Below, in pieces: positions 12,197 to 20,629 of a stretch of 38,266 nt of DNA. The position numbers and the translations under genes were made by a program. This DNA is from a virus. How positions within the stretch are numbered: the stretch's first letter is position 1; each line of letters begins with the position of its first letter. The notes beneath the pieces are model-generated. The model was not told the origin of the DNA. It searched no databases and saw only the letters and a list, made by a program, of their open reading frames with translations. The stretch lies in the IMG/VR virus record IMGVR_UViG_3300042691_016123, positions 1 to 38,266 of that record. One strand, 5' to 3'.

Positions 12197-12747
12197 GCTT
12201 GCTTCTCCTGCTTGGCACGGGCCACACGAGCGGCCTTGGCATCAATCACCCGCTTAATCAGGTCTTGATGGCCCTGGCAAGCCTCATACGCCTGTTTGTA
12301 GACCGCTTGCAATTCCTCGCCCGTGGTTGTGGCCTCAATAGCTGCCAGCCAATCGGCAATGTCGGGCTTTGGGCCTTTGCGAGCTGCATTGCCATCGTCG
12401 TCTTCCGGGGCGATGCCGCAAGCTGCCATCAGGCTGTAGCGCCGGGCGTAGGTTAGGGCGCTGCCAAACCCCTGGGCATCATGCTTGACGGCTGGAACAT
12501 GCAACTTGCCGCACTCCAAAATCTCGCCAGATTCGTGGATAAAGACTGTCTCCACTGTCACCCCAATGGTGTCTGCGCTGGTGCGCTGTATGAGGGCAAT
12601 TCCAGCCCCGTTTAGCCCTTCAATGACTGCCTCAACGCAGGCCGACAGATCGGCGTAGCGTGAGCGGAAGTGCGGGTTTGTGCTTGTTTTAAGTGCTGGG
12701 CCAAAGGCTTTTTGTGCCTTAACCAGTGCGCTTGCAATCTTGTCCAT
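12193..12747 (-). CDS. erf: ERF-family ssDNA-annealing protein
   Basis: 184 aa from ATG 12747, which has AGGAG 7 nt upstream. It has the ERF signature: ALKTSTNPHFRSRYADLSA near residue 20-35, then GQ-type beta strands, and AQGFGSALTYARRYSLMAACG (about 94-114). ERF proteins anneal complementary single strands during phage recombination and genome circularisation. It is first in the operon that also codes a YqaJ exonuclease and an SSB-like protein. An in-frame ATG at 12786 adds 13 residues and lies exactly 6 nt after the -10 box of promoter A, so a second, leaderless start is possible. Confidence 0.92.
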   Translation of the reverse strand: MDKIASALVKAQKAFGPALKTSTNPHFRSRYADLSACVEAVIEGLNGAGIALIQRTSADTIGVTVETVFIHESGEILECGKLHVPAVKHDAQGFGSALTYARRYSLMAACGIAPEDDDGNAARKGPKPDIADWLAAIEATTTGEELQAVYKQAYEACQGHQDLIKRVIDAKAARVARAKQEKQA

Positions 12748-12780
12748 TTTTTCTCCTAAAAAGACCCCAGCAAAGTGCCA

Positions 12781-12846
12781 GGGCATACGATGATTGTATA
12801 GACCACTAGACAGTGTGGAATAGGGACTTACCCTATGTTTTTCTGC
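12781..12846 (-). promoter_or_regulatory. Promoter/operator cassette A for the ERF operon
   Basis: Reading leftward: inverted repeat ATAGGG-ACTTA-CCCTAT (12820-12836), then 12798-12793 TACAAT as -10, then 6 nt and AUGCC at 12786, where transcription is predicted to start. The leader RNA forms a CCC/GGG stem enclosing GC-ACTTT-GC and continues GGGGTCT, AGGAG. The layout matches cassettes B, C and D. The inverted repeat is centred about 41 nt from the predicted start. Confidence 0.7.
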
Positions 12847-13296
12847 TTAAGTTTGTCTTGTGTGAAGATGATTGCCCATCACATGTGCGCGGGCCGCATC
12901 CCATTTAGCCAGCACTTCGCCGCCACCTTTAAGACCCTTCAACCCCTGAATTAGAACCTCTGTGCAAGGGTGGTAATCAGGCAGTCGCGACTGCTCCTGC
13001 ACAGGTGCTGCGGGTGGGGTGGCGTCATAGAGTGCCCTCACCTCGCGCTTGTTGTGCGGCCACTTTTTGTCGCGGCGCTGCATTTCTTTAATCGCGGCTT
13101 GCTCGTCTTCAAACGCGGGTAGTGCAATAAAGCCATCGCAGTAAACGGCCCACGCCACAGGCTCCTGCTTCTTGGCCGACTCGATGGCGGTGTGAAGGTC
13201 GCTCATGGTTTCATCAGCCCAGGCATGATCGCAATGCCCTCGTCGGGCTGCCTTCAGCGCCTCCAGCGCCAGCTTCGCTGCTTCAATTAGTGTCAT
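12847..13296 (-). CDS. Early protein with QEPVAW block, copy 2
   Basis: 149 aa from ATG 13296. N-terminus EAAKLALEALKAARRG, then KKQEPVAWAVYCDGF, a helical stretch with EDEQAAIKEMQRRDKKW, LYDATPPAAPVQE, and a helical C-terminus. Same architecture as the product at 8798-9499. Last gene of operon B: its stop is next to the inverted repeat of promoter A, with no terminator between. Function unknown. Confidence 0.75.
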   Translation of the reverse strand: MTLIEAAKLALEALKAARRGHCDHAWADETMSDLHTAIESAKKQEPVAWAVYCDGFIALPAFEDEQAAIKEMQRRDKKWPHNKREVRALYDATPPAAPVQEQSRLPDYHPCTEVLIQGLKGLKGGGEVLAKWDAARAHVMGNHLHTRQT

Positions 13297-13499
13297 TTGC
13301 TTGCCCCCTTTATTCCTAACATCTCCGACACATCTTCGATCTCAACGTAATCAAAATAACCGTTGCTCATCGGTGGCCTGCACCTTAGTGCATCTGCAAC
13401 CAATTCAGCTTCTTCAAAGGTTTCGTGCTGTGAATACACATTGCCTAAGCGGCCTGAAGGGTAATACTGCTCCCAAGCTAACACCCAGAACACTTTCAT
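13293..13499 (-). CDS. Small early protein, unknown
   Basis: 68 aa from ATG 13499 (ATGA with the upstream stop). Sequence begins MKVFWVLAWEQYYPSGRLG and looks like a small alpha/beta protein with FEEAELVADALRCR. Compact, no Cys pairs, no TM. No family recognised. Confidence 0.7.
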   Translation of the reverse strand: MKVFWVLAWEQYYPSGRLGNVYSQHETFEEAELVADALRCRPPMSNGYFDYVEIEDVSEMLGIKGASK

Positions 13500-13726
13500 G
13501 TCTTGCTCCTTGCTGGCCACCACTCGGGCCGTTCTGTCCATTCGATGCTTGCTGGCGTAAGACAAGGTGTGTTTGCGGCAATATGCACGTTCCAAACAGG
13601 ACTGGCTCTACCTGCCGAAGCACTCCAGCGCTGCCCATCCCACCAACGAAGTGAGTCGGCATCTTTTTGTACGCTCGCAGGCCACCAGCCAATGCTGGGC
13701 GGCGGCCCTTTGTGCCATTGGGTCAT
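13496..13726 (-). CDS. Small Trp-rich early protein
   Basis: 76 aa from ATG 13726 (ATGA overlap). It begins MTQWHKGPPPSIGWWPAS, contains SLRWWDGQRWSA and ends PEWWPARSKT, with about ten Trp. The RWWDGQRWS stretch resembles the DUF2510-type WWDG motif of short surface-associated domains. No function known. Confidence 0.7.
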   Translation of the reverse strand: MTQWHKGPPPSIGWWPASVQKDADSLRWWDGQRWSASAGRASPVWNVHIAANTPCLTPASIEWTERPEWWPARSKT

Positions 13727-13851
13727 TTTTGTTCCTCCGCTGCCCGCAGTGCAGCAGCCCAGGTGCGCAGAAAGCGCGTCAGGTCTTCTTCTGTCGGGTC
13801 TTCAATCGTGGCGCTGATCTCCAGCCACGCACGCTTCATTGCTTCGTTCAT
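13723..13851 (-). CDS. 42-aa helical protein
   Basis: ATG 13851 and TGA 13723-13725 both sit in ATGA overlaps with neighbours, which strongly supports translation. Product MNEAMKRAWLEISATIEDP, then TEEDLTRFLRTWAAALRAAEEQK, is an acidic two-helix peptide. No family recognised. Confidence 0.7.
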   Translation of the reverse strand: MNEAMKRAWLEISATIEDPTEEDLTRFLRTWAAALRAAEEQK

Positions 13852-14030
13852 TTGGTTTCTCCTGTTGCTTTCTGGAATGCTTCGTTTAGGGCATCTCTTG
13901 CGGCGTGATGCCGCACAACAAGTTTGGCATGAAAATAATGAAAATCGTATCCTTCGTAGTTCTTTCGAGCTTCATCAAAATCGTTTTTTTGCTCAAGGTA
14001 ATCGTCAAGCAAATCTGTGAATGTCTTCAT
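13848..14030 (-). CDS. 60-aa helical protein
   Basis: ATG 14030 with ATGA overlap. MKTFTDLLDDYLEQKNDFDE, then HYFHAKLVVRHHAARDALNEAF: a short charged helical hairpin with a His/Phe-rich middle. Ends KATGETK. I recognise similar short DLLDDYLxxK proteins from phage early operons, without function. Confidence 0.7.
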   Translation of the reverse strand: MKTFTDLLDDYLEQKNDFDEARKNYEGYDFHYFHAKLVVRHHAARDALNEAFQKATGETK

Positions 14031-19855: not shown

Positions 19856-19870
19856 AGCCACTACTCCTGA

Positions 19871-19947
19871 TTAGACCCGTTAAGGCATTAGTGCAACAGC
19901 GCACCACATAGCACCCGGACGGATGCTACAGGGTAGGCTGTCAGGCT
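19871..19947 (-). repeat. Two-hairpin intercistronic element, copy E2
   Basis: GTGC-aacagc-GCAC (19891-19904) and TAGCA-CCC/GG-A-TGCTA (19909-19928), with flanks GGGTAGGCTGTCAGGCTGC. On the coding strand it is followed by AATGCC, CGGGTCTAATCAGGAG and the start of the next gene, so a 3' element and a 5' leader element abut here. Confidence 0.75.
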
Positions 19948-20183
19948 GCTTGCCGATTGTGGTGGGCTTGCAATCTTTGCGCTTGGGCTAGATATGACGC
20001 ATTGGCTGGATGATCCATTGACCAGCGATCCGGTTCTGTGCCGAGGGTCTGGACATGGGCGATAGCGTCTTCGTATGATGCCATCGGCAGGAGTTTAGAA
20101 CCGACTTCAACGTAAACCCCATGCTTGCCGAGCTTCTCGGCATAGTCTGACGTTGGGTATGCGTAACCGATTGAGTGTTTCAT
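19941..20183 (-). CDS. Small protein, middle gene of cluster D
   Basis: 80 aa from ATG 20183 (AAGGAAACC upstream). An in-frame ATG at 20213 would add MPSGSFKETT and coincides with the AUGCC of the leader module. KHSIGYAYPTSDYAEKLGKH then GVYVEVGSKLLPMASYEDAI and a Gln/His-rich end. Small alpha/beta protein, not recognised. Confidence 0.7.
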   Translation of the reverse strand: MKHSIGYAYPTSDYAEKLGKHGVYVEVGSKLLPMASYEDAIAHVQTLGTEPDRWSMDHPANASYLAQAQRLQAHHNRQAA

Positions 20184-20200
20184 GGTGGTTTCCTTAAAAG

Positions 20201-20275
20201 ACCCTGAGGGCATTAGTGCAACAACGCACCCCATAGCCCACAGAATGGGCTAGATGGTGGGTTGTTGGGCTGCTA
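20201..20275 (-). repeat. Two-hairpin intercistronic element, copy E3
   Basis: GTGC-aacaac-GCAC (20216-20229) and TAGCCCA-cagaa-TGGGCTA (20234-20252), then GGTGGGTTGTTGGGCTGC. Followed on the coding strand by AATGCCCTCAGGGTCT, TTTTAAGGA and the next start. Confidence 0.75.
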
Positions 20276-20536
20276 CTTAGCACGACGGGCGTTAACCGTA
20301 GCGTAAGCCCAATTGGTAGCGTCAGCCTGATTGGCAAAATATTTGCTGCGCTGCTGAACCCCAAATTCCTGCCAATCTCCGTACAGGCACACGCGCCGGG
20401 CGCTTTGCACCCATGCCGCGTATGTGGTGCCGTTATTGTTAAGACCGACAATCCATCCTATCTCACGCCCTTTGCTGTCTTTGCGACCCGTGCCTATGAA
20501 GTGCTCGGACATGTCGTTGTAAGGTGCTTCTGTCAT
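20273..20536 (-). CDS. First gene of leftward cluster D, unknown
   Basis: 87 aa from ATG 20536 with AAGGA 7 nt upstream. HFIGTGRKDSKGREIGWIVG, LNNNGTTYAAWVQSARRVCL and a C-terminus QRSKYFANQADATNWAYATV suggest a small beta-barrel or sandwich of the type seen in short phage accessory proteins. Not recognised. First gene after cassette D. Confidence 0.7.
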   Translation of the reverse strand: MTEAPYNDMSEHFIGTGRKDSKGREIGWIVGLNNNGTTYAAWVQSARRVCLYGDWQEFGVQQRSKYFANQADATNWAYATVNARRAK

Positions 20537-20555
20537 CTTAAATCCTTTTAATAGA

Positions 20556-20629
20556 CCGCCTTGCGAAGTGCTTGCGGCATACCTTCTATTGTCTATGTGG
20601 CTAGACGCTAGTCACTAGGACAAACCCTA
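20556..20629 (-). promoter_or_regulatory. Promoter/operator cassette D (leftward)
   Basis: Reading leftward: TAGGG-TTTG-TCCTA (20629-20616), -10 GACAAT (20593-20588), 7 nt, then AUGCC at 20580. The leader hairpin CCGC-AA-GC-ACTTC-GC-AAG-GCGG (20577-20556) is followed by GGTCTATTAAAAGGA. A 10-codon AUG-initiated peptide (MPQALRKAVY) would start at the predicted RNA end. No rightward -10/ATG pair is present here. Confidence 0.7.

Follow-up and report, generated by a model that had tools for sequence, protein, structure and literature searches.

A recurring hairpin leader joined to a ribosome-binding site ahead of early genes in freshwater phages

Why would a phage place the same short leader, with a hairpin that changes from copy to copy, in front of one gene after another? 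The question is raised by a 38-kb virus record (IMG/VR record IMGVR_UViG_3300042691_016123; 38,266 nucleotides [nt], 51% GC; the whole stretch analyzed is called the window), in which a preliminary description had noted six copies of a module consisting of AUGCC, a hairpin of variable sequence, GGUCU, and then the ribosome-binding site (the Shine-Dalgarno sequence [SD]). All six copies were recovered where they had been placed, on the minus strand (Table 1). Proposed as a conserved RNA element, the module kept its fold and covariation in relatives, and we regard the element and its fold as good as certain. Its role, for which a 5'-terminal protective leader is our preferred reading, is weighed below against the competing explanations.

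Conservation of the fold and its flanks

Within the window alone, the bare pattern ATGCC-N(3-25)-GGTCT was moderately rare, being found 5 times versus 1.26 expected (5 of 100 shuffles reached 5), and the five matches shared one direction, each lying shortly upstream of an SD and a start codon. The doubt left by these counts was removed because relatives carry the module. In the viral collection, the true pattern was found in at least 120 stretches (here and below, the sequences counted are related, so that counts do not stand for independent events). The pattern with ATGCC permuted to ATCGC was found in 33 stretches, mostly overlapping true modules (5 of 23 distinct matches lay outside modules), and the pattern with an altered downstream (3') half gave no match. 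When the flanks were left free and only a −10 box, a 6-nt gap, NNN-CC-stem-GG-NNN, and an SD with start codon were required, 205 sites were obtained, with ATG before the stem in 143, TCT after it in 141, and both in 137; in a mis-spaced control with the −10 box placed 18 nt away, both flanks were present in 2 of 58 sites. The top six window matches of a covariance model were exactly the six copies (E values of 6e-9 to 0.5, copy 2 scoring lowest), a ranking that is partly by construction, as a few training sequences came from the window and its nearest relative.

Most copies had 4 to 18 interior bases, and both stem sequence and stem size varied while pairing was kept. The first interior pair was formed in 91% of copies versus 56% in shuffles, and in three gap-free size classes 91 to 99% of cells paired, with covariation scores of 0.35, 0.33, and 0.20 versus 0.13, 0.15, and 0.09 after shuffling; sliding one strand by one column lowered pairing to 43 to 63%. 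Stem covariation, first described from the window, thereby extended to many further copies from related phages, above the shuffled and slid controls, and the stems of the window were as described, including the inner GC-NNNNN-GC in three copies. The stem was longer than first drawn, as G3 of AUG is also paired with U of GGUCU; the predicted fold starts at this nucleotide, and only the two 5' nucleotides (AU) are unpaired. The leader of the weakest copy (that of the gene at 19855), taken alone, was not predicted to fold as drawn. Four-base loops were of the GNRA, UMAC, or UNCG type in 42 of 58 cases versus about 5% in hairpins of the same DNA used as controls, a count that holds many repeats of few sequences (15 of 27 among unique cores). 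Covariation and tetraloop types together indicate that fold and stability are selected and that stem sequence is not. Unlike the stem, the two flanks (AUG and UCU) are nearly constant, as is the outer G-U pair, which is never G-C or A-U in the size classes counted.

Upon alignment on the A of ATGCC, positions −12 to −7 read T74 A72 n A62 A59 T73 (percent), i.e., TAnAAT, and position −1 was C or T in 94%; as this promoter alignment looks, the A of ATGCC would be a sigma-70 transcription start. Downstream of GGTCT, an open U-rich stretch and then the SD follow in fixed register (T89 T91 T89 [A or T] A82 G85 G73 A78 G62, percent), with the start codon mostly 13 to 17 nt past TCT and most 5' untranslated regions 30 to 43 nt long. 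A repeat at the module promoters is shared inside one phage and different between phages, being AGGGTTTGTCCTAGTG here (upstream of copies 2, 3, and 4; Table 1) and TTCACAATTGTGA-like, GTAAAGCGGGCTTAC-like, or TGTTTAGAACCCTATACA-like elsewhere (loci L009, L014, L019, L078, and L085). Judged from these repeats, it is as if the leader stayed constant while each phage had its own putative repressor operator.

Spread among relatives and the form between genes

Loci were collected by the Erf of this phage (80), by the gene downstream of copy 4 (13), by its terminase (80), and by the pattern itself (at least 120 stretches). In a simple scan, the module was present in 67 of the 80 Erf loci versus 3 of the 80 terminase loci. 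A covariance model built from 56 modules gave 126 matches (E values up to 1) in the Erf loci versus none in the terminase loci, which are of similar total length; because training sequences had been drawn from the Erf loci, it is the absence from the terminase loci that is informative. Since Erf loci carry the module and terminase loci almost never do, the module tracks the early region, and the window has a mosaic makeup. This mosaic is seen across 12193-22759, where Erf relatives have the leader module and close terminase relatives almost never do.

Many freshwater phages, this one included, begin their early mRNAs with the module. We listed 268 distinct matches preceding about 100 gene families (relaxed prefixes were allowed, and some chance entries are inside; the promoter-linked ATGCC subset numbers 189), with several copies per genome ahead of unrelated genes. 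Among 109 contigs chosen by motif alone, Erf was present in 76, a DUF1376 protein in 69, and a YqaJ-like exonuclease, assigned by reading the sequence, in 83, and a different annealing protein, of the Sak family, was present in another 19. The commonest gene downstream of the module encodes a 62-residue protein starting with MTDFTF (loci L039, L179, L186, L194, L210, and others [22]); the one member scanned matched no Pfam family, and no module precedes a relative in phage record MW202544.

A host element borrowed by the phage was rejected as the origin: 257 Gb of bacterial and archaeal genomes gave 43 matches, attributable to chance only, none of them with promoter, hairpin, SD, and start, and near-identical bacterial matches, mostly delta-proteobacterial, resemble a coding gene whose end overlaps an SD. 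The covariance model found nothing in 398 Pseudomonadota genomes, a weak negative since no known positive genome served as a control, and gave one match (E value of 0.003) in a single other genome. The module was absent from the annotated phage records fetched (MEP301, P19250A, DSL-LC05, and several Manatee Spring genomes), and the best short-query match among annotated phage records, MW202497, looks like an ordinary terminator.

That the module occurs both after promoters and between genes, as had been read from the window, held in the window and in relatives. In relatives, the promoterless form occupies 33 distinct places, where a stop triplet is followed, mostly after 5 to 9 nt, by a first hairpin (GGGGC-UUCG-GCCCC, or with GCAA or UACG loops), a linker that is mostly AUCAAU, the module hairpin (CCC-GCAA-GGG or CCC-UAAC-GGG), UCUUUU(U/A)AGGA, and AUG. 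Promoterless copies mostly have AAU in place of the module's AUG (AATCC), and the AATCC copies lie a median of 24 nt past the upstream open reading frame (ORF), 23 of 25 within 80 nt. In the window, the two promoterless copies are arranged likewise, with different hairpin sequences, behind the preceding gene. A hairpin of this kind also closes the last gene of the row (Table 1) and has no module after it, because no gene follows in that direction; the first hairpin is thus assigned to the preceding gene's end, and the module to the beginning of the gene after it.

Proposed function and competing explanations

Control of mRNA stability or translation, as first suggested, agrees with the anatomy and came off better than the main alternatives; we infer a role of this kind. 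More specifically, we see about an even chance that the module joins a protective hairpin at the 5' end to a U-rich, insulated ribosome-binding site and serves as a standard phage mRNA leader. At promoters, transcription would start at the A of AUGCC, and the RNA would fold at once into the hairpin G3-C4-C5 ... G-G-U, with two free nucleotides at the triphosphate end, followed by a short open U-rich stretch (UCUUUUUA) and a strong SD at a fixed distance. The hairpin, pairing with itself and hence not with the ribosome site, may hinder 5'-end-dependent decay at the steps of pyrophosphate removal and RNase E entry, and the U-rich stretch would aid ribosome loading, probably via protein S1. Blocking of RppH and RNase E by 5' stem-loops is documented (PMC3997798, PMC5360333). 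Between genes, the hairpin past the stop codon and the module would together give the next gene an equally insulated ribosome site, and cleavage in the AUCAAU linker possibly yields an equally protected 5' end.

The predicted openness of the ribosome site was 0.59 with the native module versus 0.53 with a shuffled one and was higher with the native module in 158 of 197 leaders; in these predictions the hairpin would keep itself out of the ribosome site's way. The operon-internal genes of the window have plain SDs, which speaks for action at the ends of transcripts or the borders of genes rather than for a translation signal on each gene. Several points weigh against the protective leader. The ribosome site was slightly more open without any module (0.62), so that the chief benefit would lie elsewhere than in SD exposure; an intergenic module would come to lie at a 5' end only through cleavage of the RNA; the stem is weak in some copies, at 3 to 4 pairs; and a protective leader leaves the near-invariance of AUG, UCU, and the G-U pair unexplained.

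With AUG and UCU invariant, there is scope for a dedicated binding factor. An RNA-binding protein, encoded by phage or host, might read AUG and UCU on the hairpin scaffold and switch or favor translation of all phage mRNAs so tagged together, for which the joint conservation of AUG and UCU (155 of 155+ sites in the scan with free flanks), the unreplaced outer G-U pair in the classes counted, and the recurrence of the module before unrelated genes of one genome speak. Stem and loop sequence and stem size, however, vary freely, the promoterless form mostly has AAU, and no candidate gene stood out in the motif-chosen contigs, which are partial and where only recombination and replication genes did; we consider such a protein rather unlikely. 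A shade more doubtful is the wider proposal that a freshwater phage lineage tags its early mRNAs, by fixed AUG and UCU around an exchangeable hairpin, for a phage or host factor favoring tagged over host mRNA, the operators being swapped and the tag kept.

Alternatively, the 5'-terminal AUG (5'-uAUG) could itself be a ribosome landing site, from which hairpin and SD would pass the ribosome to the real start. Escherichia coli provides a precedent, as its 5'-uAUG mRNAs associate with 70S ribosomes and are able to affect the gene downstream (PMC4965119). In the 189 promoter-linked copies, AUG is exactly at the putative 5' end, and most promoterless AATCC copies are without it, which fits a role of the AUG tied to the 5' end. 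As a stem from nucleotide 3 would hinder use of the AUG and the reading frame is not kept, we find this explanation improbable. A leader peptide or upstream ORF was rejected on the frame from the leader AUG, which is not conserved (stop in 149, out of frame in 41, fused in 23, and no AUG in 55). In copy 1, the module AUG shares its frame with the Erf-like gene (ORF 12193-12786; leader 12747-12786), so that a gene caller may set the start 13 codons early, inside the leader.

It is very unlikely that the module is a promoter-proximal attenuator, at which, in the absence of an overriding phage factor, hairpin and U-run would halt RNA polymerase about 30 nt into the transcript. UCUUUU(U/A) does stand directly after the hairpin in about 90% of copies, but the terminator score was above 0 in only 4 of 168 promoter-linked copies (median of −18; formula-based score with a trp control), the U-run is swapped for A-containing sequence in several window copies, and AGA, which would complete the stem against UCU, is not among the prefixes listed. 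With so few copies above threshold, stem strength and U-tract being insufficient, an intrinsic terminator was likewise rejected. An antitermination or polymerase-modifying RNA of the nut or put kind has hardly any likelihood: GGUCUUUUAAG resembles boxA (which we take to be GCUCUUUAACA) and the module heads early transcription units, but boxA precedes the hairpin in nut, and the module is locked to the SD in fixed register, between genes too, a lock that antitermination does not need. The lambda-type nut site, with boxA upstream of the boxB hairpin, was rejected because the hairpin precedes the U-rich motif here, as was an RNA thermometer or riboswitch hiding the SD, since the SD is outside the stem and mean pairing probability downstream of the module is 0.20.

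Features of the window and comparison with known systems

Table 1. Module copies and associated features in the window; −10 boxes and the hairpins behind genes were read from the sequence
Feature	Position	Strand	Remarks
Module copy 1, ATGCCCTGGCACTTTGCTGGGGTCT	12762..12786	−	Promoter-linked; precedes Erf-like gene starting at 12747; nine-pair stem
−10 box TACAAT, copy 1	12793..12798	−	6 nt upstream of A of ATGCC
Module copy 2, ATGCCGCGATGTTGCGGTCT	14357..14376	−	Promoter-linked; precedes 32-codon ORF at 14343
−10 box TACAGT, copy 2	14383..14388	−	
Operator-like repeat AGGGTTTGCCCTAGTG	14409..14424	−	Upstream of copy 2
Module copy 3, ATTCCCCAGCATATCGCAAGGGGTCT	19030..19055	−	ATTCC variant; promoter-linked; precedes gene at 19009
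−10 box TACAAT, copy 3	19062..19067	−	
Operator-like repeat AGGGTTTGTCCTAGTG	19087..19102	−	Upstream of copy 3
Second, weaker operator-like repeat	19110-19125	−	Upstream of copy 3
Hairpin of the kind behind the genes upstream of copies 5 and 6	19639..19657	−	Closes the row's last gene; no module
Module copy 6, ATGCCTTAACGGGTCT	19873..19888	−	Between genes; precedes gene at 19855
Hairpin TAGCATCC-GTCC-GGGTGCTA	19909..19928	−	Behind gene upstream of copy 6
Module copy 5, ATGCCCTCAGGGTCT	20199..20213	−	Between genes; precedes gene at 20183
Hairpin TAGCCC-ATTCTG-TGGGCTA	20234..20252	−	Behind gene upstream of copy 5
Module copy 4, ATGCCGCAAGCACTTCGCAAGGCGGTCT	20553..20580	−	Promoter-linked, weak −10 near 20588-20595; precedes gene at 20536
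Operator-like repeat AGGGTTTGTCCTAGTG	20613..20628	−	Upstream of copy 4

The gene downstream of copy 1 encodes an Erf-like annealing protein. The small genes behind copies 2 to 6 matched no PHROG family, and those behind copies 3, 4, and 5, the only ones of these scanned against Pfam, matched no Pfam family. Across 19639-20252, a repeated 3' unit (a CAGCCTACCCTG-type stretch, a hairpin, and a GTGCG..GCAC hairpin) is common to two adjoining small genes and the row end, which suggests duplicated gene cassettes. On the plus strand, a phosphoadenosine phosphosulfate reductase-like gene (15520-16578) runs against the leftward early genes, and a small ORF divergent from copy 2 (14473-14706), with a Cro-type helix-turn-helix look by eye, matched no PHROG or Pfam family.

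The module had not been assigned to a named family, and this stands: no Rfam 15 model matched at the gathering threshold, with two irrelevant matches below it (E values up to 1). We found no description of the module in the searchable literature, a coverage that leaves most subscription journals outside. Here, then, is a small RNA part without an Rfam model, reused across many uncultivated freshwater phages ahead of early genes. Its sequence gives access to the question of how these phages sustain expression in the face of host RNA decay and can serve to trace this phage lineage in metagenomes; as a leader, it is compact and naturally tested, and its flanks and stem lend themselves to separate variation. 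If a factor does read the invariant flanks, the phage would be tagging its messages in a new manner.

Among known systems, the E. coli mRNAs with a 5'-terminal untranslated AUG and an SD likewise have AUG at the 5' end, as predicted here, and a separate SD-led start downstream (PMC4965119), whereas the AUG of the module is part of the hairpin base and opens no conserved frame. Intrinsic terminators and lambda nut share a short GC hairpin beside a U-rich motif; the module differs in a terminator score mostly far below threshold, in an order reverse to nut, and in being locked to the SD. The 5'-terminal stabilizing stem-loops of the E. coli ompA and papA mRNAs and of the Mycobacterium tuberculosis DrrS RNA likewise place a hairpin at or near the 5' end, where it is predicted to shield the triphosphate end. 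As in the ompA type, base pairing rather than sequence is conserved, and the promoter alignment would put the hairpin within a few nucleotides of the 5' end. Unlike these stem-loops, the module has the form of one standard cassette, in which the AUGCC and GGUCU flanks are invariant and the SD distance is fixed; it occurs in many copies per phage lineage and also in a between-gene form, and its half-life effect is predicted only. The phage T7 gene 10 leader, which we take to combine a 5'-terminal hairpin, a U-rich stretch, and a strong SD, is similar in plan; it presumably serves one gene, with another sequence and a phage polymerase, whereas the module stands at host-type promoters before many genes. 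By analogy, the best mechanism is that the module may work like the ompA 5' stem-loops or the T7 gene 10 leader.

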